Below are positions 23,959 to 42,830 of a stretch of DNA of 60,308 bases, one piece after another. The notes below the pieces were generated by a model that was not told where the DNA came from, searched no databases, and saw only the letters and a program-made list of their open reading frames with translations. Positions within the stretch are counted from its first letter, which is position 1. Each line of letters starts with the position of its first letter. Both the position numbers and the translations under genes were made by a program. This DNA is from Balneolia bacterium. GTDB taxonomy: Bacteria; Bacteroidota; Rhodothermia; Balneolales; Cyclonatronaceae. The stretch is from the NCBI GenBank assembly GCA_022565795.1, contig JAIUMA010000016.1:1-60308 (forward strand), given 5' to 3'.

Positions 23959-26661
23959 TTACTCCAGAGGCAGCTCCATGATAAATCGTGATCCCTCGCC
24001 GGTCCTGCTTTTCACCAGCAGTCGCCCGCCGTGCATGCTCATGATTTTACGGCTGATGCTCAGACCCAGCCCCGTGCCGCTTTTTCGTTTTGAGATCTCT
24101 CCGGTCTGCGAGAACGGTTTAAAAATACGCTCCTGATCCTCTTCGGCTATTCCCGGCCCGTTATCAGTCACCTCTACCATGAGCTTCTGATCTTTCACAA
24201 AAATGCGCACTTCAATCGCTGGATTGGTTTCGCTTCCGTAGCGCACCGCGTTCGATAACAGGTTCAGAACGACCTGCTTCAGACGATCAGCATCACCCTG
24301 AATCCCGGGAAGCGACGGCTCAGCATCAAACGCGACATCAATCTTTTTCTCCCGGAAAACCTGCTCCATAGAATCCATGGATTCCTGAACAACCTGCTCC
24401 ATACGCAGCGGCAGCGACTCGATTTCGAAGGTGCCTGTATTGGCCTTTTGCGTATCCAGAAGCTGGTTTATGAGACGTGTGAGGCGTTCGGTTTCTTTTC
24501 CGATGATGTCCAGGAAGCGGGCTTTATCGGACTCTTTTACGTCCGGAGTGTCGCGCAGAATTTCGGTTAACGCCCGTATCGAAGTGAGCGGTGTTTTGAG
24601 CTCATGGGTTACCGTAGCCACAAATTCATCCTTCATCTCGTCGAGCTGACGCAGCTGCTCGTTGGCCTGCCTCAGCTCTTCGGACGTTTCCTGAAGCTGT
24701 CTGCTGTACTGAAGTACTTGTCGCGTTTCATCCAGAATACCGCGGATCTCAGTAATGCTCATTGGCTTCTGACGCACCTCCATGGCCATCAGCAGGCGGG
24801 CTGATGAAGAGCCAATCGCACCGGCAAGCTGCTTCTCGGCATGACCTATGAACATCAACGGTGCCGGCTGATCATCTCCGGGAAGCGGGCTGTTTGAATT
24901 TTCGTACGTGGTGATGGTCTCCGAGGCTTTTCGCTCACCCAGGAAGCGCGTCAGTATGGTTTTGAGGGTGCCAACCGTAGCCTCGCTCTGCCGGTCAGCC
25001 GCGTGGGTGTCCTCGATGGTTTTCCCCTCCACAAACAGGGCAGCCTGCGACAGCTCAAGGGGCGTCTGCCTGCTGAAGGCCGAGACCACCAGCAGTAGCA
25101 GCGTATTCACCGAAAGGCTCCAGAATACCGACTGCGCCACGGTAGAATAGCCCGTAATACCCAGAAGCTGACCCGGGCGGAGCAGCTCAACTCCCCACGG
25201 ACCGTTTTGGGTGAGGTCCATAAAGAAAGGACTGATGCCGGCCACGGACGGAATAACCAGCGTGTAGGCCCAGATCACAAATCCGGAAATGATGCCGGCC
25301 AGCGCGCCGGTTCGCGTGGCGCCGTACCAGAACATGCCAATAAACAATGCGGGCGCAAACTGAGCGACAGCGGCAAAGGACACCAGGCCAATTGAAACCA
25401 GGCTGTAGTCTTCACCAATAAAACGAAAATATAGATAGGCGAGCAGCAGAATGACAAAAATACCCACCCGGCGAATAAGCAGGATGAGCCGGCCCGGCGA
25501 CTGCTGCTGAAGCAGGCCCAGACGGGGCGAACGCAGAAGAGCAGGCATGATGAGGTCGTTGCTCAGCATGGTGCTCAGCGCGATGGTAGCTACAATCACC
25601 ATCGAAGTGGCCGCTGAGAGTCCGCCGGTAAATACGAGAATAGCCAGAAAGCTCTGCCCCTCAATCAGCGGAATGCTGAGCACAAAGGAATCGGCATCCA
25701 CGCCCTGAAGCCCCGGATGCATGAGGCCCGCCAGCGCAATCGGCAGCACAAAAATATTGATAATGAGCAGATAAAGGGGAAACATCCACGCGGCCGAGCG
25801 CACGTGGTCTTCGTTTACGTTTTCCACCACCGCCGTCTGAAACTGCCTTGGCAGCAGCAATATGGCCGGCATGGAAAGAATGGTGAGCCAGATCCAGTCT
25901 CGCTGCAGCTCCGATCCCTCTCCGGTGCTGAATAACTGACGCATTTCAGGCCTTTCCCAGGCGGCACGGAAGAGCTCTGCCGGACTGCCGTACATCACAA
26001 AAACCACAAACAAACCGGCAGCCGTAAAGGCCAGCAGCTTCACCACCGACTCAAAGGCAATAGCGGCCACCATTCCCTCATGTTTTTCGGAAGCGTCCAG
26101 CTCGCGGGCGCCAAATAAAATGGTAAACACGCCGAGCACCAGCGTCACATAAAAAGCCGTATCCGTAAGGAAAAACCCACCCGTTTGCTCCCAGCCCATC
26201 TGCATGACCGAAAGGTCGCCGGTCATGATGGTATAGCTGCTTGAAATCGCCTTGAGCTGCAGCGAGATATACGGGATGATGCCCAGCACGGCGATCACCG
26301 TTACCACTCCGGCCAGCAGGGTGCTTTTACCGTAGCGTGATCCAATAAAGTCAGCAATGGAGGTAATCCGCTGATGGCGGGAAATGCGGATCATGCGGCG
26401 AAGCACAAGGAAGAAAAGCGCGGCCATGAGCGTCGGCCCGAGATAGATGGGCAGAAACCCGAGACCCGTTTCCGCAGCCCGGCCCACCGATCCGTAGAAC
26501 GTCCATGCGGTGCAGTACACGGCCAACGAAAGCGAGTAGACCCACGGATTGTTGATGAGGCTCTTGCCCTGCTTGGCCCGCTTATCGGCCAGATAGGCAA
26601 TCAGGAAAAGCAGCGAAAGGTAACCAAACGCAATAGCCGCTATGAGCACCGGACTGTTCAT
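23959..26661 (-). CDS. Sodium/solute symporter-histidine kinase fusion (CrbS/CbrA-like)
   Basis: A 900-residue inner-membrane sensor. Residues 1 to about 540 form a sodium:solute symporter domain with roughly 13 hydrophobic helices. After a linker and coiled coil comes a complete kinase core: H-box THELKTPLTSIR with His686, N-box NLLSNA at 800-805, G1 DNGPGIA at 833-839 and G2 GTGLGLS at 862-868. This architecture matches CrbS of Vibrio and CbrA of Pseudomonas, which control acetate and carbon use. No LuxR-type partner such as CrbR is adjacent. It overlaps the preceding small membrane gene by 4 bp, in an operon with the ScfR-type regulator. Confidence 0.93.
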   Translation of the reverse strand: MNSPVLIAAIAFGYLSLLFLIAYLADKRAKQGKSLINNPWVYSLSLAVYCTAWTFYGSVGRAAETGLGFLPIYLGPTLMAALFFLVLRRMIRISRHQRITSIADFIGSRYGKSTLLAGVVTVIAVLGIIPYISLQLKAISSSYTIMTGDLSVMQMGWEQTGGFFLTDTAFYVTLVLGVFTILFGARELDASEKHEGMVAAIAFESVVKLLAFTAAGLFVVFVMYGSPAELFRAAWERPEMRQLFSTGEGSELQRDWIWLTILSMPAILLLPRQFQTAVVENVNEDHVRSAAWMFPLYLLIINIFVLPIALAGLMHPGLQGVDADSFVLSIPLIEGQSFLAILVFTGGLSAATSMVIVATIALSTMLSNDLIMPALLRSPRLGLLQQQSPGRLILLIRRVGIFVILLLAYLYFRFIGEDYSLVSIGLVSFAAVAQFAPALFIGMFWYGATRTGALAGIISGFVIWAYTLVIPSVAGISPFFMDLTQNGPWGVELLRPGQLLGITGYSTVAQSVFWSLSVNTLLLLVVSAFSRQTPLELSQAALFVEGKTIEDTHAADRQSEATVGTLKTILTRFLGERKASETITTYENSNSPLPGDDQPAPLMFIGHAEKQLAGAIGSSSARLLMAMEVRQKPMSITEIRGILDETRQVLQYSRQLQETSEELRQANEQLRQLDEMKDEFVATVTHELKTPLTSIRALTEILRDTPDVKESDKARFLDIIGKETERLTRLINQLLDTQKANTGTFEIESLPLRMEQVVQESMDSMEQVFREKKIDVAFDAEPSLPGIQGDADRLKQVVLNLLSNAVRYGSETNPAIEVRIFVKDQKLMVEVTDNGPGIAEEDQERIFKPFSQTGEISKRKSGTGLGLSISRKIMSMHGGRLLVKSRTGEGSRFIMELPLE

Positions 26662-26870
26662 GCTTCTTTTTCCTTAGCGGTTTTCTGTCCCGACACAAAC
26701 AGAAGCGCAATGATGAACAGCCAGACGGCAAAGATGTAGATCATCCCGGAGGGCAGGCCAAGTAAATAGCCGGGACGAGCGGCAATTCCGGAAGCCGGTG
26801 ACAGGAGCAGTATGATGCCCGTAATGAAGGCGACGATGCTTAGCACACGTTGTTTTCCGGCCTTTTTCAT
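26658..26870 (-). CDS. Small two-helix membrane protein
   Basis: A 70-residue protein with hydrophobic segments at about 9-28 and 42-61 and a Lys/Glu-rich tail. I do not recognise a family. Its 4-bp overlap with the symporter-kinase gene suggests a small subunit or assembly partner of that sensor, analogous to the small subunits encoded beside acetate symporters. That role is an inference from position only. Confidence 0.75.
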   Translation of the reverse strand: MKKAGKQRVLSIVAFITGIILLLSPASGIAARPGYLLGLPSGMIYIFAVWLFIIALLFVSGQKTAKEKEA

Positions 26871-26898: not shown

Positions 26899-28389
26899 TC
26901 AGGAGGTTGAGCCTTCGGCAAAAAGTTCATCCATGCGGCGGGCTATGCGTTCCTCGCGCAGCTTCTTCTCATGAATTACCGGGGCAGTTGCCCGTTCGCT
27001 GCAGTCCTCAATAGGACAGCGTTCGCAGGTCCGGTTCACAACCGATCGCACGACCTTCTCATCATCCCAGAATCTCACCTTACGCTTGAACCGCTGATCC
27101 ATCAAAAAGCCGATGGTCACGCAGGAGTTTACGCCCGGACTCAGGCGTAGCGGTCTCACCGCTGAGATGCAGAAGTACTCGTTTTCGGTATTGTGAAACA
27201 GCGACCGCTGGGCCCCGAAGGTTACGCCCTCCTTGTTTGAGTCGGCTACTTCCTTAAGCAGGCGCAGCGTAATCCAGCGGCGGCAGTAATGCTCGTTAAA
27301 GCCAATGCCGTGGGTGGAGTGCAGTTTCGAAAAGTGAAGCTCCTTGGTAAGCTTAAGCGCACCCGTGTTAGTATCATGATTGAAGCGCAGAAAATAAAAC
27401 TGCCCAAGCTGAAATTTCTCCGCCATAATCTGGGTCAGCCGGTGAAACAGCATTTCGGGCGTCACTCTGTATTTGGAAATCATGGCCTCCAGCGCATCCG
27501 TATTCCATTCTCCGGATTCGAACCATGTTTCGATATCGGCAGCCAGATCATCCTTGTCCAGCAAAAGCGCACCGGCGAAATAGGATGCGTGCGTGTTATT
27601 GAGAAGCTGATCAAAAGTGGCATCCTTCAGATAGGATGAACCTGGAACGCGCTCCTTGAGCTCGAGTACCTCATAGCCCAACTCACGGCAGAGCGAAAAA
27701 AGCTGCTGAGATTCCGTGAGCCGGGTATTTACGTACAGACGCTGAGGTTTTTTCGGCAGATAAAGCGAGCGAAAATGCCCGAGCTCTACGCTTTTTGCCA
27801 GCTCCTCTTCATCAATGTTATAGCCATATTCCTGCTCCATCAGGCTTTTGATTTTGGCGTAGGTCAGCCGCTCACCTTCAAGACTGTACTGCTTTCGGAA
27901 TGCCGCCGCTTTTTTTTCAATCTCGGGGAAGTAGTTGTTCTGCATCTCCTGATACGATCGCAAGGCGCCGAACAGCAGGTTCTCCACGCTCAGGTCGTAG
28001 GTCCTTGCAATCTTGATGAGCGTATCGATCAGTGCGGCAAAGCGAGCCGGCGCGTTGGTCATAAACTCCATCAGGTCCGACTTCTTCAGGCCGAACAGAT
28101 CAAACGGGATTTCCTGCATAATGCTGGTGCTCAGCAGTTCGGAAAGCGGCATGAGCTGCTGATCGAGCTGAAGCGAAACGAGCTCGTCGTACGGTTTGCC
28201 AAGCGCCTCGGCCAGAGACATGATTTTGTCGGCTTTGGGATATTTTTTACCCTTTTCGATTTCATTCAGATACGAAATCGACATCCCGCTCTTTTCGGAC
28301 AACTCCTTTAGCGAAAGCCCCCGCTGCTGCCGCAGCCAGCTGACCTTCAGACCAAGAACAAGATTAAGATTTTCTTTACTGATACCCAT
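26899..28389 (-). CDS. RamB/ScfR-type transcriptional regulator
   Basis: A 496-residue regulator with an N-terminal XRE helix-turn-helix (about 13-68: LRQQRGLSLKELSEKSGMSISYLNEIEKGKKYP), a central ImmA/IrrE-like region and a C-terminal DUF2083-type domain ending in CERCPIEDCSERA (Cys455, Cys458, Cys463). This is the architecture of short-chain fatty acyl-CoA responsive regulators, including RamB of Corynebacterium and PrpR of mycobacteria, which act on aceA/aceB, acetate and propionate genes. It is divergent from the malate synthase gene, with a 207-bp intergenic region holding operator-like repeats. It is the first gene of the operon with the symporter-kinase. Confidence 0.9.
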   Translation of the reverse strand: MGISKENLNLVLGLKVSWLRQQRGLSLKELSEKSGMSISYLNEIEKGKKYPKADKIMSLAEALGKPYDELVSLQLDQQLMPLSELLSTSIMQEIPFDLFGLKKSDLMEFMTNAPARFAALIDTLIKIARTYDLSVENLLFGALRSYQEMQNNYFPEIEKKAAAFRKQYSLEGERLTYAKIKSLMEQEYGYNIDEEELAKSVELGHFRSLYLPKKPQRLYVNTRLTESQQLFSLCRELGYEVLELKERVPGSSYLKDATFDQLLNNTHASYFAGALLLDKDDLAADIETWFESGEWNTDALEAMISKYRVTPEMLFHRLTQIMAEKFQLGQFYFLRFNHDTNTGALKLTKELHFSKLHSTHGIGFNEHYCRRWITLRLLKEVADSNKEGVTFGAQRSLFHNTENEYFCISAVRPLRLSPGVNSCVTIGFLMDQRFKRKVRFWDDEKVVRSVVNRTCERCPIEDCSERATAPVIHEKKLREERIARRMDELFAEGSTS

Positions 28390-28596: not shown

Positions 28597-30243
28597 ATGC
28601 TTACCGAAAAAGAAACCCTCACCGTATCGGAAACCGGATTTGAACCGGTTGGATATCACATTCAGATCAGAAAAAATGCGCTTAACGGGCGCAGCAAAGA
28701 GATTTTTACCGAGCCCGTTCTTAAACTTATTTCAGCCCTTCATCAGCAGAAAAACAAAGAGCGGGTTCAGCTGCTGGATAAGCGGAAGCTGCGTCAGGAA
28801 AAATTTGATACGGGTGAGCTGCCCTCCTATGAAGACCGTCATTCCGAAGCCGTAACCGGAAGCTGGAAAGTTGCGCCGCTGCCGGATGACCTGCTTCAGA
28901 GAAGAGTCGAAATTACCGGACCGGTGAACTCTGCAAAAATGGTGATTAATATGCTCAGCCGGAACGATGATGGCGAGCGGGCCGACATGGCCATGCTGGA
29001 TTTCGAAGACTCCATGAAGCCCGACTGGAGCAACGTAATAGATGGCTACCATAACGTTATTGGCGCGGTTGATAACACCCTTCGTGAGGAGCAGGGTGGA
29101 AAAGTCTATGAAATCAATCCGGATGACAAAGCCGGTGTGATGGTTCGCGTTCGCGGGCTTCACCTTGCCGAAAACAACATTTTAGTCAATGGTGAACCGG
29201 CCTCGGCGGGCATCACCGATCTGGCGGTCGCTTTTTATCATACCGCAAAAACCCTGAAAGCTCAGGGCCGGACACCCAAATACTACATCCCGAAATGCGA
29301 ACACTATCTCGAAGCCCGTTGGTGGAATGATCTTTTCAAGCTGGTGCAGCAATTGTGCGGCTTCCCTTCCGGCACGCTCCGGGCAACCTTTCTAATCGAA
29401 ACCCTCACGGCTGCATTTCAGATCGAGGAAATTCTGTATGAAATCCGTGAGCACGCCGCCGGACTCAACACCGGGCGCTGGGATAAAATCTTCAGCGACA
29501 TCAAGGTGCTGAAGGCCCATCCCAGACACATTATGGCCGACCGGGTGACCATCACCATGCAAAAATACTGGATGGAAAATTACGCCAAACGCATTGTGCT
29601 GATCTGCCACAAGCGCGGTGCATTTGCCATGGGCGGCATGTCTGCCTTCACCCCCGGCAAAACCGGTGAGCTGCGCGAAAAGCAAACCCGTAAGGTGGCC
29701 GAAGACAAAGCCTGGGAATCGGGCTTGGGTCACGACGGCTGCTGGGTTTCTCACCCCTATTTCATTGGTGTGGCGCTCAGGCAGTTCACCAAAAAGAATC
29801 AGCTTGATGTGATTCCCGGGTATGAGCTCTATCCTGACCTGATTCCCTCTTCTGAAGGACCCAAATCACTCGACGGGCTCCGGACCAACGTGCGCGTGGG
29901 CATTGGCTACATGAACGGCTGGCTTCAGGGCATCGGATGCGTGGCCTGGGATAACCTGATGGAAGATCTGGCCACGCTGGAAATTTCCCGCGCCCAAACC
30001 TGGCAGTGGAAACATCACCGCGTAATTCTGCGCGAAGGCATGACCGTAGATGATGTACTCATCAGCCGGATTTTCGACGAAGAGCTTGAAAAGATCCGTC
30101 AGGAAGCCAAAGAGCTGATCAGCGATGGGGCGCAGCTGCAAAAGGTAACGGAAGGCTTTGAGCGGGCCGCCGCCGAAGCACGCCGCATTTTTCTTCAGGA
30201 CGAGCTGGCCGACTTTCTCGCCATGGGCTCCGATCCCGCCTGA
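28597..30243 (+). CDS. aceB: Malate synthase A
   Basis: Condenses glyoxylate with acetyl-CoA to malate, the second step of the glyoxylate shunt. The 548 residues match malate synthase A rather than the longer G form. Typical segments are MLDFEDSMKPDWSNVIDG, MVRVRGLHL (catalytic Arg region), RATFLIETLTAAFQIEEIL with the metal-binding Glu, and the signature KRGAFAMGGMSAF followed by GHDGCWVSHPYF. The start at 28597 is supported by GGAG 5 nt upstream. It is the first gene of the aceB-aceA operon, divergent from the ScfR/RamB-type regulator. Confidence 0.97.
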   Translation: MLTEKETLTVSETGFEPVGYHIQIRKNALNGRSKEIFTEPVLKLISALHQQKNKERVQLLDKRKLRQEKFDTGELPSYEDRHSEAVTGSWKVAPLPDDLLQRRVEITGPVNSAKMVINMLSRNDDGERADMAMLDFEDSMKPDWSNVIDGYHNVIGAVDNTLREEQGGKVYEINPDDKAGVMVRVRGLHLAENNILVNGEPASAGITDLAVAFYHTAKTLKAQGRTPKYYIPKCEHYLEARWWNDLFKLVQQLCGFPSGTLRATFLIETLTAAFQIEEILYEIREHAAGLNTGRWDKIFSDIKVLKAHPRHIMADRVTITMQKYWMENYAKRIVLICHKRGAFAMGGMSAFTPGKTGELREKQTRKVAEDKAWESGLGHDGCWVSHPYFIGVALRQFTKKNQLDVIPGYELYPDLIPSSEGPKSLDGLRTNVRVGIGYMNGWLQGIGCVAWDNLMEDLATLEISRAQTWQWKHHRVILREGMTVDDVLISRIFDEELEKIRQEAKELISDGAQLQKVTEGFERAAAEARRIFLQDELADFLAMGSDPA

Positions 30244-30327
30244 TAACTACCTATCACCACGAACACCATCACCCTGCACACACATCATTAACCAACATCC
30301 CATCATTCAAACACTATTATTTGACCT

Positions 30328-31593
30328 ATGAAAACATTCCACGACATCACGTACAACTGGGAGCACAACCCAAGATTCAAGGGCGTTGCCCGTACCTATA
30401 ACGCGGCAGATGTAGCCAAACTGGCCGGCTCTGTCGAAGTGAAATACACGCTGGCCGAGCGCGGCGCTACCCGACTCTGGAAAAGCCTTAAAGAAGAGCC
30501 TTATGTAAACGCACTAGGCGCCCTTACCGGAAATCAGGCGCTTCAGCAGGTAAAAGCCGGCCTGCAGGCCATTTATCTGAGCGGCTGGCAGGTTGCCGCC
30601 GATGCCAATCTGGCCGGACAAATGTACCCGGATCAGAGCCTTTACCCCGTAAACTCCGTGCCGGATGTGGTGAAGCGCATTAATCAGACGCTTATGCGTG
30701 CCGACCAGATTTACCACAGCGAGGGCGGCGGTGACTTCGACTGGATGGTGCCCATTGTTGCCGATGCGGAAGCCGGCTTTGGTGGTCCGCTGAACGCTTT
30801 TGAGCTCATGAAATCGATGATTGGCGCAGGCGCGGCGGCCGTCCACTATGAGGATCAGCTGGCATCAGAGAAAAAATGCGGTCACCTGGGCGGCAAGGTG
30901 CTCGTGCCCACATCACAATTCGTGAAAACCTTGAACGCGGCCCGTCTGGCAGCTGATGTGTGCGGAGTCGAAACCATCATCATCGCGCGGACAGACGCCA
31001 ATGCTGCCCGCCTCATGACCAGCGACGCCGACGAGCGCGATCATCGCTTCATAACCGGAAACCGCACGGCCGATGGCTACTACAGCATAACCGGTGGGCT
31101 TGAAATGGCCATCGAGCGCGGACTCGCCTATGCGCCCTATGCCGATCTGGTATGGTGCGAGACATCGAAGCCCGACATTGGTGAAGCCCGCGAATTTGCG
31201 CAGGCGCTGAAAGACCAATACCCGGACAAAATGCTCGCCTACAACTGTTCGCCATCATTCAACTGGAAAAAGCAGCTCAGCGACAAGGAAATCAGAAGCT
31301 TCCAGGATGATCTGGGCGCCATGGGATACAAGTTCCAGTTTATAACGCTGGCCGGCTTCCATGCGCTGAATCACAGCATGTTCTCTCTGGCGCACGATTA
31401 CCGACATACCGGAATGAGCGCTTATGCCAAGCTTCAGGAAGCGGAGTTCGCCAACGAAAACCTGGGCTATACCGCCACACGCCATCAGCGCGAGGTTGGC
31501 ACCGGCTACTTCGATCTGGTAACGAACGCACTATCCGGAGGTCAGGCTGCCACCGCAGCCATGGCGGGTTCTACGGAAGCGGAGCAGTTTTAA
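30328..31593 (+). CDS. aceA: Isocitrate lyase
   Basis: Splits isocitrate into glyoxylate and succinate, the first step of the glyoxylate shunt. The 421 residues are close to the bacterial norm. The catalytic-loop signature KKCGHLGGK begins at 182, with the active-site Cys184, and the substrate/metal region [10 protein letters not shown] is at 144-153. It follows malate synthase by 84 bp and precedes a strong terminator, so aceB-aceA are one transcript. Together they allow growth on acetate or fatty acids. Confidence 0.97.
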
Positions 31594-32694: not shown

Positions 32695-32701
32695 CAGTCC
32701 G

Positions 32702-33392
32702 TTGGCTTCGGCTTTGCTCAGCCAACGGTTCGGGGTTTAAGGAATATGGGTAATGGGTACTAAACAGCATTTTTACTGAGTCCTTTCACGGTTGGGCACA
32801 ACCTAAACTCACACTTCTCCTCCACCCGCTGCCTGAGCGGAGCCGAAGGCAGAAGGGGTTAGGGGCTTGATTTAGCCTAAAAAAATATCAACCGTGCTAA
32901 GTAATCCTGTTTCCAGGCAGTAAACAACTCTCTCCGCCTCATCATGTTGGCTTCGGCTCCGCTCAGCCAACGGTTCTGGGTTTAACGAATATGGGTAATG
33001 GGTACTAAACAGCATTTATACTGGGTCCTTTAACGGTCGGACACAACCCAAATTCCCCTTCTCCTCCACCCGCTGCCTGAGCGGAGCCGAAGGCAGAAGG
33101 GTTCAGGGCTTGATTTAGGGAAATGAAAATATCAACCGTGCTAAGTAATCCTGTTTCCAGGCAGTAAACAACTCTCTCGGTCCCCATCATGTTGGCTTCG
33201 GCTCCGCTCAGCCAACGGTTCTGGGTTTAACGAATATAGGTAATGGGTACTAAACAGCATTTATACTGGGTCCTTTCACGGTTGGACACAACCCAAACTT
33301 ACACTTCTCCTCCACCCGCTGCCTGAGCGGAGCCGAAGGCAGATGGGATTAGGGCTTGATTTTAGGCTAATGAAAATATCAACCGTGCTAAA
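32702..33392. repeat. 245-bp tandem repeat array (about 2.8 copies)
   Basis: Unit starts (ttggcttcgg) lie at 32702, 32947 and 33192, an exact 245-bp period. Each unit contains the palindrome-ended element seen at 22809 (left ttggcttcggctccgctcag, right ctgcctgagcggagccgaag) plus a spacer with atatcaaccgtgctaa and, in the first two units, a ccaggcagtaaac segment. The third unit departs from the others after ccgtgcta at about 33390. Confidence 0.9.
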
Positions 33393-33495
33393 GAAAGTCG
33401 GTTTCATTGAGTTTAAAGGAACTGCTCCTCAAACCGGTGGTTATTTCATTACTGACAAACTGAAAAAAATAATTGCCAAAAAAACTGCGGATTAA
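33370..33495 (+). CDS. Possible small ORF (41 aa) growing out of the repeat
   Basis: An ATG at 33370 opens a frame of 41 residues, MKISTVLKKVGFIEFKGTAP and on to a Lys-rich end (LKKIIAKKTAD). The first seven codons lie inside the third repeat unit; the second unit contains the same ATG and codons but then runs into a stop after 14 codons. I do not recognise a family. It could be a decayed gene end or a real small protein. Confidence 0.3.
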   Translation: MKISTVLKKVGFIEFKGTAPQTGGYFITDKLKKIIAKKTAD

Positions 33496-33657: not shown

Positions 33658-34773
33658 ATGCCCACTTTCCAATCATATCGCCGGCAAATAATGGCTCAGG
33701 CAGAGTCTGATGATGGAATATCATCATCCGGAACCGAAGACCGAATCGGGGAGATTTGCGGTCGTATAATCCACAATTGTGAGTTTAATCATCCGGCAGA
33801 TTTACGCCCCCGACTGGGCGAAGAGATTGGGCAATTGCTGGATGATGGGATGCGGCCGTCGCAAGCATGCCGGGTGGTGACCAAAGTGGCCGACGAGTTG
33901 ATGAGCATTGGCTTTGAGCACGCTATCAAAAAAATGGGTGAAGCTCCAGCTCGATGGATGCTCATGCTGATGGGCTCTGAAGGGCGGACCGAACAAACGC
34001 TGCGCACTGATCAGGACAGCGCGATTGTCTTTGAGTCCCGCGGAAAAGAGCAGGACAAATCCGCCCGTGACTATTTTACCAAAATCGGCCGGATGGTTTC
34101 CGACGGACTGAACGGCTTCGGCTTTCTCTACTGCAAGGGCGGGGTGATGGCCTCAAATCCCGAATGGGTGATGCCCCTCGATCAGTGGAAGGCGGCCTTT
34201 TCGGGCTGGGTGGAAGAACCCGAACCCATGGCCATCATGAAGGCCTGCATCTTTTTTGACCTACGGGCCGGCTACGGAGATCGCGCTTTTGCCGATGAAT
34301 TGAATACCCACATCCGCAAACTGCTCGACGGACGAAGCGGACTCTTTTTTTACCATATGGCGCAGAACGCGCTGAGCCATTCCGTGCCGCTCGGCTTGTT
34401 TGGCGGTATCAGCCGCAGCGCGTCCCGCTCGATGGACATCAAAAAAGCGATGCTACCGGTTACCGATCACGCCCGGATTTATGCGCTTCAGAAAGGCATC
34501 ACACTGAACAACACGCTGGATCGGATAGCAGAGCTGGACTCCCAAAAGTCCTACAACGGCGCTGAATCAGTCGAAGCTGCCGCATGTTATGAGTTCCTTA
34601 CAGAGCTGCGGTTACGGCATCAGATCGGGCAGCTTCGGGAAGGCGGGGAGCCGGATAACATCATTGATCCCTCTGCCCTTTCACAGGAACAGAAGAATGA
34701 TCTGATCGCTGCTTTAAAACTTTCGGACGCCCTTCAGAAAAATATCGGCATGAACTTCCGCGCCGCCTACTGA
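33658..34773 (+). CDS. DUF294 nucleotidyltransferase-like protein
   Basis: A 371-residue protein with the GlnD-like nucleotidyltransferase motif LMLMGSEGRTEQTLRTDQD at 102-120 (Gly-Ser at 106-107, Asp118 and Asp120) followed by the DUF294 C-terminal domain. Relatives usually carry an N-terminal cyclic-nucleotide-binding and/or CBS domain of 200 or more residues; this copy starts directly at the transferase part. The substrate is unknown. Its stop abuts the stop of the exonuclease fusion gene with no gap. In proteobacteria related genes sit beside acetate permease clusters, which agrees with the neighbours here. Confidence 0.85.
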   Translation: MPTFQSYRRQIMAQAESDDGISSSGTEDRIGEICGRIIHNCEFNHPADLRPRLGEEIGQLLDDGMRPSQACRVVTKVADELMSIGFEHAIKKMGEAPARWMLMLMGSEGRTEQTLRTDQDSAIVFESRGKEQDKSARDYFTKIGRMVSDGLNGFGFLYCKGGVMASNPEWVMPLDQWKAAFSGWVEEPEPMAIMKACIFFDLRAGYGDRAFADELNTHIRKLLDGRSGLFFYHMAQNALSHSVPLGLFGGISRSASRSMDIKKAMLPVTDHARIYALQKGITLNNTLDRIAELDSQKSYNGAESVEAAACYEFLTELRLRHQIGQLREGGEPDNIIDPSALSQEQKNDLIAALKLSDALQKNIGMNFRAAY

Positions 34774-36882
34774 TCAGTACCGCAGCCTGGCGTAAAGGCT
34801 TTCCCGGCTGGCGCGCAGGGCGTCTTCGATGGTAACAATGCCCTCGGACCGGAGCAGCGGCACCAGCTTCACGAACAGCGCGGCCGTCAGCAGGGTGTCG
34901 TCCAGGGCGTTGTGACGCGTGCCGGTTTCCAGACCAAAGCGTTCGGCAAGCACGTCCAGCGAATGCCCCTCCAGATTCGGGTGCAGCACGGTCGACAGCA
35001 GCAGCGTATCCAGCACCGGCTGACGAAAATGATCCGGATTCGCGCGCTCCAGCTCCAGAAAACGCATATCAAAAGCAGCGTTGTGGGCAATGAGCGGATC
35101 ATCGGCGCAAAAGTGGCTGAAGTCGCCGAGCACCTTTTTTGCACCCGGCTTTCCGGCAACCATATCCTCGGTAATGCCGTGAATGGCCGTGGACGATGCG
35201 GGAATTCTCCTGCCCGGATCAATCAGCCGGTCAAACTGCTGATTCGTATCTGGCTTTCCGTTTACGATACGGATGGCGCCAATAGAAATCAGGCGATCGC
35301 CCCCGGTAGGGTTCAGCCCGGTGGTTTCGGTATCAAACACGGTAGCGGTGATGGCATCGAGGCGGATCTTCAGCGTATCGGCATCGGCCCGCTGATTAAA
35401 CAGATCAAAGTCGTAAAACTCTGCCCTCTGTTTTTCCGGCGCCGCAGGAGTAGCTGATTTCGGACGTTCAGGCGCCATTGGCAGGATGACACTCAGCTCA
35501 CAAAGGCCACCATCACTGGTTTTCTGCCACCACTCCGCCCGGTGGTGCTGCATGATTTCACTGAGCGGGTAAGGAACCTGCAGTCCGCCTACCGATGGAC
35601 GCGCTTCAAACCAGGATTCCGCCACTTCAGTCAGGATCTCTTCACCCTTCCACATCCATGAAAGCCGCACATAGCCGTCGTGTTTGCCGGTCTTCAGCTC
35701 CGGAATTTTGCCGGTTGCTTCAGCAATAGATTTGCCCAGAAACAGCAGTCCGACGGGCAGGGTGAAGGCATCCGCGTGCAGAAAAAGCTCCTCATCCGGA
35801 TCTCCGATTTCCGGCTGATGCTCAAGTTCACCCTCCATATTGCGGAGTAGGCCAAAAAGCTCGTCAGTGCTGACCAGACTGAGCGCCACATCCGATTTCG
35901 CCCGCTCCTCGTGCCCCGCCTGATGCTCCAGCACGATACCGGCAATTTTTTCACTTTCATCCAAAATGAGCTCATAAAAACGCTGCTGCATCTTAGGATC
36001 CGTATCGGGATATTCGCGCAGGTTTTCCGCCGCCGAGCGGATTCCAGCCACGGAGTCGCGCACCTTGCGAATGCCCTCATCGGCAAATCGACTGCTCTGA
36101 TCCTGGGTGGATTTCAGCTCGGTTACATCATTCACAAAAAACAGAAACCCTGAGCCGGCTGTGGGCTCGTGGGTAGTGGGCAGTACCTGCACGCGGGCCA
36201 GACGGTTGCCGGCCGTGGTGGTTATGAAGGAAACGCCCTCATCACCGGTTCTACGGACTGACTCCTGCATGGCCCAGCTGACCAGGCGCTCGTCCAGAAT
36301 GCGGCCAAGCTGTCTGCCAAGGCCGAGATAAACCGGCGGCGAAAGCTCGGAATAGGAAAGCATGCGGCCGGCGGCATCATTAAACAGAAGAATCTGAGCC
36401 TCGCTGTTGGTTACGATAAGCCCGCGGGCAAGCTGATTCACGATGGCGCTGAGCACGTCCCGCTCGGATGACAGTCGCGTGGAGGCCTGCTTTAATTCCC
36501 GGTCGAGACGCTGCTGCTGATCCCGAAGAAGTTCAGAGGCGTCCTTCAGGCCGGAAGCGATGCGGTCAATTTCCGGGATTCCGGTTGGGGGTCCGGTTTC
36601 GGGTGGCATGTTCTGCTTCAGCAGCGTGGATGCATCAGCCAGCCGGCCTACGGGACCAATGCGTATTTGAATCAGCTGATAAACCAGCCACGCAGGCACT
36701 CCGGCCGTTAGCAGCAGTAAAAAAAGCACCACGGGACGATTTTCGCGGATGATGCTTTGAAGAGTCTCCGCCGAATCGGGCGTAGTGAGGTATAGGAGAA
36801 AAGCGTACAGCAGAATCCCGCCGGTGAGAATTACGGCAACAATTAGGGCGGGCAGCAGTCGAAGGCTGCGTTCACTTCGCAT
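34774..36882 (-). CDS. Membrane PAS/degenerate kinase-DEDDh exonuclease fusion
   Basis: A 702-residue protein. Two transmembrane helices (about 8-31, 50-70) are followed by a HAMP-like/coiled region, a PAS-like domain (about 142-255), a kinase-shaped region (262-470) and a DnaQ-type 3'-5' exonuclease (512-673). The exonuclease is intact by motif: Asp517/Glu519 (FDTETTGL), Asp605 (HNAAFD), His657/Asp662 (HNALDD). The kinase region lacks the phosphoacceptor: IRKVRDSVAGIRSAAENL at 271-288 stands where the H-box should be, and no N- or G-boxes are recognisable. It overlaps the upstream receiver gene by 11 bp. Confidence 0.88.
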   Translation of the reverse strand: MRSERSLRLLPALIVAVILTGGILLYAFLLYLTTPDSAETLQSIIRENRPVVLFLLLLTAGVPAWLVYQLIQIRIGPVGRLADASTLLKQNMPPETGPPTGIPEIDRIASGLKDASELLRDQQQRLDRELKQASTRLSSERDVLSAIVNQLARGLIVTNSEAQILLFNDAAGRMLSYSELSPPVYLGLGRQLGRILDERLVSWAMQESVRRTGDEGVSFITTTAGNRLARVQVLPTTHEPTAGSGFLFFVNDVTELKSTQDQSSRFADEGIRKVRDSVAGIRSAAENLREYPDTDPKMQQRFYELILDESEKIAGIVLEHQAGHEERAKSDVALSLVSTDELFGLLRNMEGELEHQPEIGDPDEELFLHADAFTLPVGLLFLGKSIAEATGKIPELKTGKHDGYVRLSWMWKGEEILTEVAESWFEARPSVGGLQVPYPLSEIMQHHRAEWWQKTSDGGLCELSVILPMAPERPKSATPAAPEKQRAEFYDFDLFNQRADADTLKIRLDAITATVFDTETTGLNPTGGDRLISIGAIRIVNGKPDTNQQFDRLIDPGRRIPASSTAIHGITEDMVAGKPGAKKVLGDFSHFCADDPLIAHNAAFDMRFLELERANPDHFRQPVLDTLLLSTVLHPNLEGHSLDVLAERFGLETGTRHNALDDTLLTAALFVKLVPLLRSEGIVTIEDALRASRESLYARLRY

Positions 36883-37252
36883 TGGCTTCGGAGAGGGTTT
36901 CCTTCACCTTCTCGACCAGCGCACGTGTGGAAAACGGCTTGGATACATAAGCATCAGCGCCAAGGGTAATTCCCTTGGTGATATCCTGATCGCGCCCCTT
37001 GGCGGTGAGCATAATGATTTTGATATGCTTCGTCTTTTTATCCTTCCGAAGAAGCTGAAGCACCTCAAAACCGCTGCGGTTTGGCAGCATTACATCCAGC
37101 AGCACCAGATCGGGTTTTATTTCCGGAATAAGGTCGAGCGCCTGCTCGCCGTTTCGGGCTACAAAAACATCGTAGCCGTTCTGGGCCATCAGAAACTCGA
37201 GCGAAATGACGATGCTGGGCTCGTCGTCAACAATTAAAATTTTGTGTGCCAT
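36872..37252 (-). CDS. Stand-alone response-regulator receiver
   Basis: A 126-residue CheY-like receiver with no output domain. All phosphorylation residues are present: Asp9/Asp10, phosphoacceptor Asp53 (LVLLDVMLP), Thr83 and Lys105 (SKPFS). Translation is coupled to the exonuclease fusion gene by an 11-bp overlap, so it may gate that protein. The fusion protein cannot phosphorylate it by the usual route. The only complete kinase in the window is the symporter-kinase at 23959. The gene is divergent from the porin/acetate-uptake operon. Confidence 0.92.
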   Translation of the reverse strand: MAHKILIVDDEPSIVISLEFLMAQNGYDVFVARNGEQALDLIPEIKPDLVLLDVMLPNRSGFEVLQLLRKDKKTKHIKIIMLTAKGRDQDITKGITLGADAYVSKPFSTRALVEKVKETLSEANAK

Positions 37253-38867: not shown

Positions 38868-39122
38868 ATGGACGAAAAATACCAACAGTACTGGAAGCGC
38901 AATCTGGCCATACTGGTCAGCCTGCTTATCGGATGGTTTGTCTTTTCATACGGCCTGGGCATTCTGCTTGCAGAGCCGCTCAACAGCATACGATTCGGCG
39001 GCTTCAAAATGGGCTTCTGGTTCGCTCAACAGGGATCTCAGTACGCCTTCATCATCATCATATTTATTTATGTGTATATGATGAACCGTCTCGATCGCGA
39101 ATTTGACGTAAGGGAGGAATAG
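38868..39122 (+). CDS. DUF4212 small subunit of sodium:solute symporter
   Basis: An 84-residue membrane protein with two helices (about 12-34 and 50-71) and the family's opening pattern YQQYWKRNLAILVSLLIGWF. DUF4212 proteins are encoded directly before VC_2705-type sodium symporters and are thought to be their small subunit, in the same place as YjcH before ActP in E. coli. The symporter gene follows after 4 bp. Confidence 0.92.
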   Translation: MDEKYQQYWKRNLAILVSLLIGWFVFSYGLGILLAEPLNSIRFGGFKMGFWFAQQGSQYAFIIIIFIYVYMMNRLDREFDVREE

Positions 39123-39126
39123 GACT

Positions 39127-40800
39127 ATGGATATCCAAACATGGACTTTTATTATAGTCGGAGCCACCTTTGCGCTCTATATCGGCATTGCGGTCTGGTC
39201 CCGCGCCGGAAACACCAAAGATTTTTACGTGGCGGGCGGCTCAGTTCATCCGCTGTTTAACGGAATGGCCACCGCCGCCGACTGGATGTCAGCCGGCTCA
39301 TTTATCTCCATGGCGGGCATGATTGCCTTCCTCGGCTACGACGGCTCGGTCTACCTGATGGGCTGGACCGGCGGTTATGTGCTTCTGGCGCTGCTCCTGG
39401 CCCCCTACCTTCGCAAGTTCGGCAAATTCACCGTGCCCGATTTTGTGGGCGATCGCTACTACTCCAGCGGTGCGCGCATGGTGGCTGTATTCTGCGCGGT
39501 GTTCATTTCCTTCACCTACGTGGCGGGTCAGATGCGCGGAACAGGAATTGTGTTCTCCCGCTTTCTGAACGTGGAGATCGAAATCGGCGTGGTAATCGGT
39601 ATGATTATCGTCTTCTTCTACGCCGTAATGGGCGGCATGAAGGGCATCACCTATACGCAGGTGGCGCAGTACTGCGTGCTCATTTTTGCCTATCTGGTTC
39701 CGGTGATTTTCATTTCTATTATGATGACCGGAAACGCCATTCCGCAATTGGGATTCGGCGGCACGCTCGAAGACGGCACCTACCTGCTCGACCGTCTCGA
39801 CGGCCTGAGCGAAGAGCTTGGCCTGGCCATGTACACATCGGGGAATAAACCCATGATCGACGTCTTCTTTATTACGGCGGCGCTCATGATTGGGACGGCC
39901 GGGCTGCCGCACGTAATTGTGCGCTTCTTTACCGTGCCCCGCGTTCGCGACGCCCGTACATCTGCCGGTTATGCGCTTATTTTCATCGTACTCCTTTATT
40001 CCACCGCGCCTGCCCTGGCCGCTTTCGCCAAGGTTAATCTGGTTGATACAATCCACAACGTGGAGTACTCTGAGGTGCCCGACTGGTTTACCAACTGGGA
40101 GCAGACAGGGCTCGTGGCCTTCAACGACCTGAACAACGACGGAATCATCAACTACTCGGGTGATCCAGCCGTCAATGAGCTTCATATCGATCCGGATATT
40201 ATCGTACTTGCGAATCCGGAAATTGCCAACCTGCCCAACTGGGTGATAGGCCTGGTTGCCGCCGGCGGGCTTGCTGCGGCACTATCGACCGCGGCCGGAC
40301 TGCTTCTGGTGATCTCCACCTCCGTTGCCCACGACTTATTCAAACGCACGCTCAAGCCGGATCTTTCCGACAAAAATGAGCTCTGGATTGCTCGTATTGC
40401 TGCTGGTGGTGCCGTAATCGTAGCCGGATATTTTGGAATCAATCCGCCTGGATTTGTAGCACAGACCATTGCATTTGCCTTCGGCCTTGCGGCGGCCTCC
40501 TTCTTCCCGGCCATCATTTTAGGCATCTTCTACAAAAAGATGAACAAAGAAGGTGCCGTTTCGGGAATGGTAGTTGGCGTGCTGTTTACCACGGCCTACA
40601 TCATCTTTTTCACCTTTATAAGGCCGGAACTGAACAATGCCGACAACTGGCTGTTTGGTATCTCTCCGGAAGGCATTGGTACGCTTGGCATGCTGCTCAA
40701 CATGGCCGTAGCTCTTGTAGTGGTTCGCTTTACCAAGAGTCCGCCTTTACATATTCAGGAGCTGGTTGAAACCATTCGCGTGCCCGGCAAGCGGAAGTAA
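39127..40800 (+). CDS. Sodium:solute symporter, acetate-type (VC_2705 family)
   Basis: A 557-residue sodium:solute symporter with about 13 hydrophobic helices. The segment FYVAGGSVHPLFNGMATAADWMSAGSF near the N-terminus is characteristic of ActP-related carriers. A long loop at about 300-365 holds DLNNDGIINY, a dockerin/EF-hand-like calcium loop seen in the VC_2705 branch. The neighbouring DUF4212 subunit, porin and acs gene indicate acetate or another short monocarboxylate as substrate. It acts in the inner membrane. Confidence 0.92.
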   Translation: MDIQTWTFIIVGATFALYIGIAVWSRAGNTKDFYVAGGSVHPLFNGMATAADWMSAGSFISMAGMIAFLGYDGSVYLMGWTGGYVLLALLLAPYLRKFGKFTVPDFVGDRYYSSGARMVAVFCAVFISFTYVAGQMRGTGIVFSRFLNVEIEIGVVIGMIIVFFYAVMGGMKGITYTQVAQYCVLIFAYLVPVIFISIMMTGNAIPQLGFGGTLEDGTYLLDRLDGLSEELGLAMYTSGNKPMIDVFFITAALMIGTAGLPHVIVRFFTVPRVRDARTSAGYALIFIVLLYSTAPALAAFAKVNLVDTIHNVEYSEVPDWFTNWEQTGLVAFNDLNNDGIINYSGDPAVNELHIDPDIIVLANPEIANLPNWVIGLVAAGGLAAALSTAAGLLLVISTSVAHDLFKRTLKPDLSDKNELWIARIAAGGAVIVAGYFGINPPGFVAQTIAFAFGLAAASFFPAIILGIFYKKMNKEGAVSGMVVGVLFTTAYIIFFTFIRPELNNADNWLFGISPEGIGTLGMLLNMAVALVVVRFTKSPPLHIQELVETIRVPGKRK

Positions 40801-40916: not shown

Positions 40917-42830
40917 ATGAAAACTGAACCAACAGATACAAAAAAAGACGATTCGCTTCTCTATCATCCGCCCAAAAGTATTATGCGAAAGGCGAATATC
41001 AAGGAGTATGAGCAGGCTTATGCCAAGTCAATAGCCGACCGCGAAGGCTACTGGGCCGGGGAAGCCAAAAAGCTGAAGTGGTTCCGAAAGTGGAAAGAGG
41101 TGCTCGACGACAGCAATAAGCCGTTTTATAAGTGGTTCACGGGCGGCAAAATCAACATTGTGGCCAACGCCATCGACCGTCATCTGGAAACGCACCGGCG
41201 CAATAAGCTGGCTATGATCTGGGAAGGCGAGCCGGGCGATGTGAAGACGATGAGTTATCATGCCCTTAATCGCGAGGTCTCCAAGTTTGCGAACGTGCTC
41301 AAAAGTATGGGTGTAAAGAAGGGTGAAATCGTAACGATTTACATGCCTCAGATTCCGGAACTGCCTATTGCGATGCTGGCTTGTGCCAAAATCGGCGCCA
41401 TGCACTCGGTAGTCTACGGCGGCTTCTCGGTTGAAGCCCTTGCAGGGCGAATCAGCGATGCCCATTCCCGGGTGCTGGTTACGGCCGACGGCGGATGGAG
41501 ACGCGGCAAAATCACCGATTTGAAAGCAATTGCCAACGAGGCCATGGACCGCTCCCCTACCATAGAGGTGTGTATTACGGTGAAGCGTACCGGTCAGGAA
41601 GTCCACATGGAAAACGACCGCGACTTCTGGTATTCCGATTTGATGGCCCTGCCCATCGCCTCACCAAGCTGCGAGACGGAAGTAACAGACGCTGAAGATC
41701 CGCTCTTCATTCTGTTCACATCCGGCACAACCGGCAAGCCCAAAGGTCTGGTGCATACGCACGGCGGCTATACGGTGTACACGTCTACAACCTTAAGGAA
41801 CGTGTTTGATATCAAGGATGAAGACCGCTGGTGGTGCGCGGCAGACCCGGGCTGGATTACCGGCCACAGCTATCTGGTCTACGGTCCGCTCATCAACGGC
41901 GCCACAATTGTGATGTATGAAGGCGCCCCCAACCATCCCTACCCGAACCGCTGGTGGAGCATGATTGAAAAGTACGGCGTTTCCATTCTTTACACCTCGC
42001 CCACGGCTATCCGCGGACTGATGCGATTTGGCGAGCAGTGGCCGAAGCGACACGACCTCTCCAGCCTGAGACTGCTCGGATCCGTCGGTGAGCCCATTAA
42101 TCCGGAGGCGTGGCGCTGGTACCACGAGGTGATCGGCCGCGGTGAGTGCCCGATTATGGATACCTGGTGGCAGACCGAAACCGGCGGTATGATGATCGCC
42201 CCGCTGCCCATCACCCCGCTAAAACCGGGCTCGGCAACCAAGCCGCAGTTTGGCATTGAGGTTGGCGTTGTGGACGAAAACGGCGAGGACGTAAAAGCTG
42301 GTGAAGAGGGCAAGCTGGTGATTAAAGGCCCCTGGCCGGGTATGGCCCGAACCATTTATGGTGATGCCGATCGTTATGCGGAAACATACTGGAAGGAATA
42401 CGAAGAGCAGGGCTGGTACAAAGCCGGCGATTCCGCCCGTATAGATGAAGATGGCTATATCTGGATTATCGGCCGCATCGATGATGTGATTAAGGTGAGT
42501 GGCTATCGCCTGGGCACGGCTGAAGTGGAAAGCGCGCTGGTGAGTCATCCGGCCGTATCCGAAGCCGCCGCAATCGCGCTGCCTCACGAGGTGAAAGGTA
42601 ATGCCATCCACACCTATGTGATCCTCAAAAACGGTCTCGTTGGTGATAAAAAGCTTGAAGAAGAACTTCGTAAACACGTTTCCGACGAAATGGGGCCGAT
42701 TGCCCGTCCTGAAACCGTCGCCTTCCTCGAAAGCCTCCCGAAAACCCGAAGTGGCAAAATCATGCGCCGGGTGCTAAAGGCCAGAGCCATGGGCGTAGAT
42801 GAGGGGGATCTTTCGACGTTGGAGGATTAA
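40917..42830 (+). CDS. acs: Acetyl-CoA synthetase (AMP-forming)
   Basis: Activates acetate to acetyl-CoA with ATP. The 637 residues equal the usual Acs length. Seen are the P-loop TSGTTGKPKG at 268-277, WWQTETGG in the middle, YKAGDSARIDEDGYIWIIGRIDD and the C-terminal PKTRSGKIMRR with Lys614, the residue that is acetylated by Pat-type enzymes in other bacteria. It is the last gene of the uptake operon (116-bp gap after the symporter). It supplies the glyoxylate shunt encoded at 28597-31593. Confidence 0.97.
   Translation: MKTEPTDTKKDDSLLYHPPKSIMRKANIKEYEQAYAKSIADREGYWAGEAKKLKWFRKWKEVLDDSNKPFYKWFTGGKINIVANAIDRHLETHRRNKLAMIWEGEPGDVKTMSYHALNREVSKFANVLKSMGVKKGEIVTIYMPQIPELPIAMLACAKIGAMHSVVYGGFSVEALAGRISDAHSRVLVTADGGWRRGKITDLKAIANEAMDRSPTIEVCITVKRTGQEVHMENDRDFWYSDLMALPIASPSCETEVTDAEDPLFILFTSGTTGKPKGLVHTHGGYTVYTSTTLRNVFDIKDEDRWWCAADPGWITGHSYLVYGPLINGATIVMYEGAPNHPYPNRWWSMIEKYGVSILYTSPTAIRGLMRFGEQWPKRHDLSSLRLLGSVGEPINPEAWRWYHEVIGRGECPIMDTWWQTETGGMMIAPLPITPLKPGSATKPQFGIEVGVVDENGEDVKAGEEGKLVIKGPWPGMARTIYGDADRYAETYWKEYEEQGWYKAGDSARIDEDGYIWIIGRIDDVIKVSGYRLGTAEVESALVSHPAVSEAAAIALPHEVKGNAIHTYVILKNGLVGDKKLEEELRKHVSDEMGPIARPETVAFLESLPKTRSGKIMRRVLKARAMGVDEGDLSTLED

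Follow-up and report, generated by a model that had tools for sequence, protein, structure and literature searches.

Results and Discussion

A sensor-like protein ending in a nuclease

What might a protein do that combines membrane helices, a PAS domain and the body of a sensor kinase with a C-terminal nuclease, and that is encoded within an acetate locus? The question was raised by a single gene in a DNA stretch of 60,308 nucleotides from a Balneolia bacterium (contig JAIUMA010000016.1), the whole of which is hereafter referred to as the window. The features of this gene, with the evidence for each in parentheses, are as follows.

34774..36882, minus strand: TM-PAS-pseudo-histidine-kinase-DEDDh exonuclease fusion, 702 aa (ORF, Pfam, alignment, AlphaFold2, Foldseek)
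36661..36870, minus strand: two membrane helices, residues 5-74 (hydropathy, helices in the model)
36124..36453, minus strand: PAS domain, residues 144-253 (Pfam, 4e-6)
35902..36123, minus strand: pseudo-DHp hairpin, residues 254-327 (alignment, AlphaFold2, profile-profile comparison)
36067-36069, minus strand: Arg272 at the phospho-His position of the pseudo-DHp (alignment)
35473..35880, minus strand: CA-like domain without N, G1 and G2 boxes, residues 335-470 (AlphaFold2, Foldseek, profile-profile comparison)
34777..35370, minus strand: DEDDh exonuclease domain, residues 505-702, with D517, E519, D605, H657 and D662 (Pfam, alignment, Foldseek, tree)

The membrane helices, PAS domain and kinase-shaped region described in the first-pass annotation of the sequence were all recovered, the helices by hydropathy (hydrophobic stretches at about 5-35 and 49-73, a helical linker leading from the second to the PAS domain), the PAS domain by Pfam, and the kinase fold by AlphaFold2 and Foldseek. 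The AlphaFold2 model showed a mean pLDDT of 82 and a pTM of 0.42, the latter value indicating that the relative placement of the domains is uncertain. Structure prediction, which had been proposed for residues 262-470, gave a helical hairpin of DHp type (254-290/296-327) and a CA-like alpha/beta domain (335-469, mostly at pLDDT 76-94), followed by the exonuclease (501-699). Foldseek matched WalK (4e-18), VicK, ThkA and HK853 on the kinase side, whereas the nuclease side superposed on PolC/DnaQ exonuclease domains with an rmsd of 1.6 A across 188 columns. Except for the gene itself, no paralogue of the fusion was found in its own genome.

Distribution of the fusion family

Three relatives with identical architecture and about 26-34% identity were found within the same genus, and a scan of GTDB genomes for the family identified at least 80 full-length or near full-length relatives (33-41% identity to a genus member). 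Among the matches listed, these belonged mainly to Beta- and Gammaproteobacteria, together with single metagenome-assembled genomes (MAGs) labelled Deltaproteobacteria, Spirochaetia and Caldilineaceae, and a plasmid search added members from Paracoccus and Cupriavidus. A unique fusion was thus ruled out by the genome scan: the architecture read at first as that of a single protein proved correct, but what had looked like a local oddity represents a widespread and conserved family. The 80 loci with the best-scoring matches, mostly from Betaproteobacteria, were taken for the analysis of gene neighbourhood, and all the counts out of 80 given below apply to these loci.

Loss of the kinase motifs and retention of the nuclease residues

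Neither HisKA nor HATPase of Pfam gave a match on the fusion. By profile-profile comparison with hhalign, a profile of 59 relatives aligned with intact SLC5-type kinases over 216 columns (probability 99.4, E 1.9e-21). The H-box THELRTPLTSIR of the intact kinases aligned with TEGSRASLANIR in the family and with IRKVRDSVAGIR in the window protein, and the N box, DNGPGI (G1) and GTGLGL (G2) of the SLC5 kinases were lost in the family; the last segment of the CA domain was retained, as EIMQHHRAEWW in the window protein and RDVxERHGGExW in the family. Among 84 aligned proteins, the phospho-His position was occupied by Glu in 65, Asp in nine, Gln in three, Arg in two, and Asn, Ala, Thr, Ser and Tyr in one each, and His was found in none of the 84 at position 272 or within three residues of it. 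The window protein is a divergent member of the family (about 30% identity), with Arg at this position and not Glu or Asp. A conserved His and ATP-binding boxes, the finding that would have spoken for a working kinase, were thus absent from the 84-protein alignment and the hhalign comparison, and the proposed replacement of the H-box and loss of the ATP-binding boxes were confirmed. As judged from these alignments and the predicted structure, the core of the fusion appears to be a phosphorylation-incompetent pseudokinase that retains the DHp-CA fold. The single Tyr was observed in a protein from a Spirochaetia MAG (L127, 4582-4848), and Tyr is also the residue at the phospho-His position of DivL.

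The C-terminal part was matched by Pfam RNase_T at residues 515-670 (4e-34). All five catalytic residues named in the first-pass annotation (Asp517, Glu519, Asp605, His657 and Asp662) are intact, and when their loss was looked for in orthologues, they were kept in 84 of the 84 aligned proteins. By fold and residues, therefore, the domain is assigned as a DEDDh (DnaQ-like) exonuclease. It shares the fold and the five residues with PolC/DnaQ-type DEDDh domains (2p1j, 39% identity by Foldseek), but differs from them in being membrane-tethered, in its two-component context and in its phylogeny: in a tree that also contained a sample of the phylum's other DEDDh exonucleases, the fused, f3 and TM-only exonucleases made up one separate clade (support 100/99). 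The dnaQ_proteo score of the fusion was 123.8 bits, below the NCBIfam equivalog cut-off of 222.7. Homologues are named in databases as "exonuclease domain-containing protein" or "DNA polymerase III subunit epsilon".

The response regulator and the SLC5-STAC kinase encoded nearby

A two-component system, of which the first-pass annotation had not included the adjacent regulator, is encoded by the following genes near the fusion.

36872..37252, minus strand: single-domain response regulator, 126 aa, phospho-acceptor D53 (Pfam Response_reg, 1.4e-30)
23959..26661, minus strand: SLC5-STAC sensor histidine kinase of CbrA/CrbS type (HisKA and HATPase intact; 10ED match)
26658..26870, minus strand: membrane ORF of 70 aa, overlapping the kinase start by 4 nt (like CbrX by position and size only)

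The response regulator gene is located directly upstream of the fusion and overlaps its start by 11 nt, and the SLC5 kinase gene lies about 10 kb from the fusion in the window. Pfam SSF gave no match on this kinase, and the doubt thus raised about its transporter part was settled by the match of its N-terminal part to the SLC5-STAC structure of CbrXA (10ED, 2e-68). A small ORF ahead of the SLC5 kinase is also present in Paracoccus denitrificans (L169, 4486-4731), as CbrX is before CbrA.

In the best loci, a receiver-only response regulator adjoins the fusion in 68 of 80 and the SLC5 kinase is encoded upstream in 63 of 80; no response regulator was found beside the fusion in the other 12, two of which are on contigs without upstream room. 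The usual order in relatives is SLC5 kinase, response regulator and fusion, often followed by DUF294 and ActP, and sometimes with Acs upstream. The ORFs of regulator and fusion overlap by 4 nt in many relatives, and in P. denitrificans PD1222 the genes for DUF294, the small membrane ORF, SLC5 kinase, response regulator (WP_011751331.1) and fusion (WP_011751332.1) are arranged on one strand with overlapping ends. The receiver residues were conserved for D9 in 68/68, D10 in 67/68 and D53 in 67/68 (an alignment gap in the remaining one). Most regulator ORFs measure 121-129 aa; where an ORF is longer (to 176 aa), the excess is a start extension that overlaps the upstream gene, so that there is no space for a DNA-binding or other output domain behind the receiver.

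The protein had been proposed to be a membrane sensor. The pseudokinase nature stood up to this analysis, but primary sensing probably falls to the SLC5-STAC kinase, which has a gene of its own, and the pseudokinase part is better explained as reading the stand-alone response regulator next to it than as an independent sensor kinase. In three loci (L073, L092 and L097, the latter two from Competibacteraceae-type genomes), the fusion lacks an adjacent response regulator or SLC5 kinase, and a gene for an SSS-family transporter is present on the opposite strand.

Separate occurrence of the modules and kinship of the two DHp domains

The modules of the fusion were also found apart. In two genomes from one family of the class (L161 and L162), the SLC5 kinase and response regulator are accompanied by a stand-alone PAS-pseudokinase without nuclease, with Glu at the His position. 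Conversely, in L163 and L164 a TM-exonuclease without PAS or pseudokinase is located beside DUF294 and ActP, and neither a response regulator nor an SLC5 kinase was found within 20 kb. Loci L034-L037 of another family encode SLC5 kinase, response regulator, PAS-pseudokinase, Acs and a porin, together with a separate TM-HAMP-PAS-exonuclease lacking DHp. The pseudokinase thus travels with the response regulator and the nuclease with DUF294 and ActP, and the fusion unites both sets.

When the pseudo-DHp profile was searched against its own genome, which contains 33 HisKA matches, it detected itself with 84.9 bits, the SLC5 kinase with 40.6 bits (8.6e-10) and the next kinase with 17.5 bits; on the general HisKA model the SLC5 kinase ranked only sixth. 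The consensus sequences of the two DHp domains align in register, with differences at several positions beyond the His site. By these profile scores, the pseudo-DHp is judged far closer to the DHp of the SLC5 kinase than to any other in the genome. This kinship fits one receiver serving both proteins, but common descent alone or heterodimerisation might also account for it.

The acetate locus and the DUF294 nucleotidyltransferase

The placement of the fusion in an acetate locus held true, and the genes around it are listed here.

33658..34773, plus strand: DUF294/DUF294_C nucleotidyltransferase (Pfam), convergent with the fusion, the stop codons abutting
38868..39122, plus strand: DUF4212 small membrane protein beside ActP
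39127..40800, plus strand: sodium:solute symporter of ActP type (Pfam SSF)
40917..42830, plus strand: acetyl-CoA synthetase, Acs (named from sequence)
28597..31593, plus strand: genes taken from their sequence to be those of malate synthase and isocitrate lyase (glyoxylate shunt)

Acs homologues recur in the loci of relatives. The DUF294 gene is present in 53 of the 80 best loci, and in 48 it either follows the fusion directly or converges with it. The best Foldseek match of the DUF294 model was 1v4a (E 2e-8), followed by DrrA and the GlnE adenylylation domain, and the catalytic-motif residues G106, S107, R110, D118 and D120 were invariant. The DUF294 partner, as known here from sequence and model, thus resembles the glutamine synthetase adenylyltransferase GlnE in fold and in the kept catalytic-motif residues. 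The recurrent pairing of the two genes suggests that the substrate of the nuclease is connected with the product of DUF294.

A stand-alone DnaQ-like protein of 220-223 aa, in which DEDDh residues are lost (for example DLN or DIV instead of DxE), was observed in L058 (13064-13729), and its counterparts in L061, L069, L076 and L086. Its gene adjoins a DUF294 gene (of cNMP/CBS type in L058) and ActP. By sequence, loci of this type appear to pair a pseudo-exonuclease with a second nucleotidyltransferase at the same locus as the intact fusion. Degenerate stand-alone exonucleases were noted in loci of Dechloromonas-like type.

Comparison with known systems

In DivL of Caulobacter, Tyr replaces the phosphorylatable His, the protein reads DivK~P, and its DHp-CA co-evolves with DivK and is often lost where the receiver is lost (PMC4211667). 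The fusion resembles DivL in the PAS plus DHp-CA core, the replaced phospho-His and the linkage to a single-domain receiver (68 of the 80 best loci). DivL, however, has retained its N/G1/F/G2 boxes and acts via CckA, whereas the fusion is without ATP boxes and its C-terminus is a nuclease. Because of the loss of the ATP boxes the fusion is not classed as DivL, but may still work like it.

CrbS/CrbR (MxtR/ErdR) and CbrA/CbrB share with the present system an SLC5-STAC transporter-kinase in an acetate locus. CrbR and CbrB are transcription factors, and CrbR activates acs. In the fusion system, in contrast, a bare receiver is the one regulator encoded next door, with the nuclease fusion behind it, and owing to the lack of a DNA-binding response regulator partner the system is not classed as CrbS/R type.

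As to the nuclease, PP_0353 (RNase_T) and PP_0354 (CBS protein) of Pseudomonas putida share an operon that belongs to the acetate regulon of MxtR/ErdR; deletion of PP_0353 left growth on 20 mM acetate unaffected and impaired growth on pyruvate, and the P. aeruginosa counterparts PA3232/PA3233 adjoin actP/yjcH (PMC9927547). PA3232-PA3235 are up about 16-fold on propionate, and the cNMP-CBS-nucleotidyltransferase Pflu5625 belongs to the CrbS/R regulon. PP_0353/PP_0354 are likened to the fusion system by family and by a similar acetate-regulon context of an RNase_T protein; no fused membrane, PAS or pseudokinase part is described there. In the openly licensed literature, no description was found of the fused protein, of the bare-receiver arrangement, of its mechanism, or of DUF294 with acetate and exonuclease. 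The earlier statement that no mechanism is described therefore stands within this literature, but the acetate link of this type of nuclease is already partly described (PMC9927547).

A proposed pathway from transporter-kinase to nuclease

The fusion family is real, conserved and uncharacterised, and by analogy its members probably couple DivL-type reading of a receiver to a nuclease. We propose, with about an even chance of being right, that the fusion forms the output arm of a two-component pathway ending in a nuclease and not in a transcription factor, the response regulator being read in the manner of DivL. The proposal is built on the observed gene triad, the lost kinase residues, the kept nuclease residues, the DHp kinship and the modular splitting, from which we infer the phosphotransfer, docking and switching as well as the sign of the effect. 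The SLC5-STAC kinase would sense its transported substrate, probably a short carboxylate, and autophosphorylate, as judged from the CbrA/CrbS family. It would then phosphorylate the stand-alone receiver, as the operon order and receiver residues suggest, and the phosphorylated receiver may dock on the pseudo-DHp as DivK~P is read by DivL, in line with the likeness of the two DHp domains and with the example set by DivL. Jointly with the PAS domain, this docking could reorient the dimeric membrane-tethered fusion and thereby switch the DEDDh exonuclease on or off.

The fusion might instead be its own sensor, the PAS/TM part sensing a ligand or redox state and controlling the nuclease, with the pseudokinase as a dimerisation or transmission scaffold and the response regulator serving another target. 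The well-conserved PAS, the retained membrane anchor and the f40 relatives, in which the TM-exonuclease is without PAS, pseudokinase and nearby regulator (L163, L164), are consistent with such a protein; yet regulator and pseudokinase stay adjacent even without the nuclease (L161, L162), the pseudo-DHp specifically resembles that of the SLC5 kinase, and no alternative output of the regulator was seen within the operon, so that we consider it unlikely that the fusion senses by itself. Action of the pseudokinase further upstream, by heterodimerisation or competition with the SLC5 kinase or by sequestration of the response regulator, with the nuclease as a passenger or a separate activity, would be permitted by the close DHp relationship and is in keeping with the stand-alone pseudokinases (L161, L162, L034-L037). 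We hold this to be improbable, since a passenger would not retain catalytic residues that are invariant in 84 proteins, and fusions persist in several bacterial classes.

As regards the nuclease itself, it might simply be misannotated, an exonuclease of DNA proofreading or repair whose N-terminal domain has no bearing on its function. The polymerase epsilon-subunit name given to homologues in some databases suggests as much, but this reading is very improbable in view of the membrane anchor, the conservation of an operon that also encodes a two-component system and carbon uptake, the clade separate from the other sampled DEDDh exonucleases of the phylum (100/99) and scores far under the NCBIfam DnaQ equivalog cut-offs; the repair reading was dropped on gene context and separate clade. 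Within the output-arm model, RNA is a possible though somewhat doubtful substrate, in which case the nuclease would trim RNA of acetate genes, either mRNAs or small fragments: mRNA decay was proposed by the authors who studied PP_0353 (PMC9927547) and the RNase_T superfamily contains RNases, but the solved structures closest to this nuclease are those of DNA proofreaders (PolC, DnaQ), and the sequence leaves RNA versus DNA undecided. The linkage of DUF294, the trio of TM-exonuclease, DUF294 and ActP without two-component parts (L163, L164) and the DUF294 fold point to a bolder scheme that we regard as a long shot, in which the two-component pathway controls a reversible nucleotidylation: DUF294 would write a nucleotide, and the receiver-gated DEDDh phosphodiesterase would erase it via the pseudokinase. 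The target of such a switch, an equally speculative matter, might be the 3' end of a nucleic acid or else a protein, for example Acs or the transporter ActP.

If the output-arm model is true, the output of a bacterial two-component pathway would be a membrane nuclease or nucleotide phosphodiesterase, read through a catalytically dead kinase, and such a pathway would be conserved in several proteobacterial classes, in a spirochaete MAG and in the phylum of the window. The system would then offer a testable case of DivL-type receiver reading by a pseudokinase as a general device, and a way into the DUF294/exonuclease pairs of acetate and pyruvate regulons, which are as yet unexplained.

Other features of the window

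Upstream of the DUF294 gene, a long intergenic region contains three direct repeats (32701-33425) at a spacing of about 245 nt, with a 185-nt core that is 65-89% alike and a 53-nt segment present in two identical copies. An XRE-family regulator with an IrrE-like domain (26899-28389, minus strand; Pfam HTH_3 and Peptidase_M78) is encoded divergently from malate synthase, and is presumably a glyoxylate/short-chain acyl-CoA regulator of RamB type.
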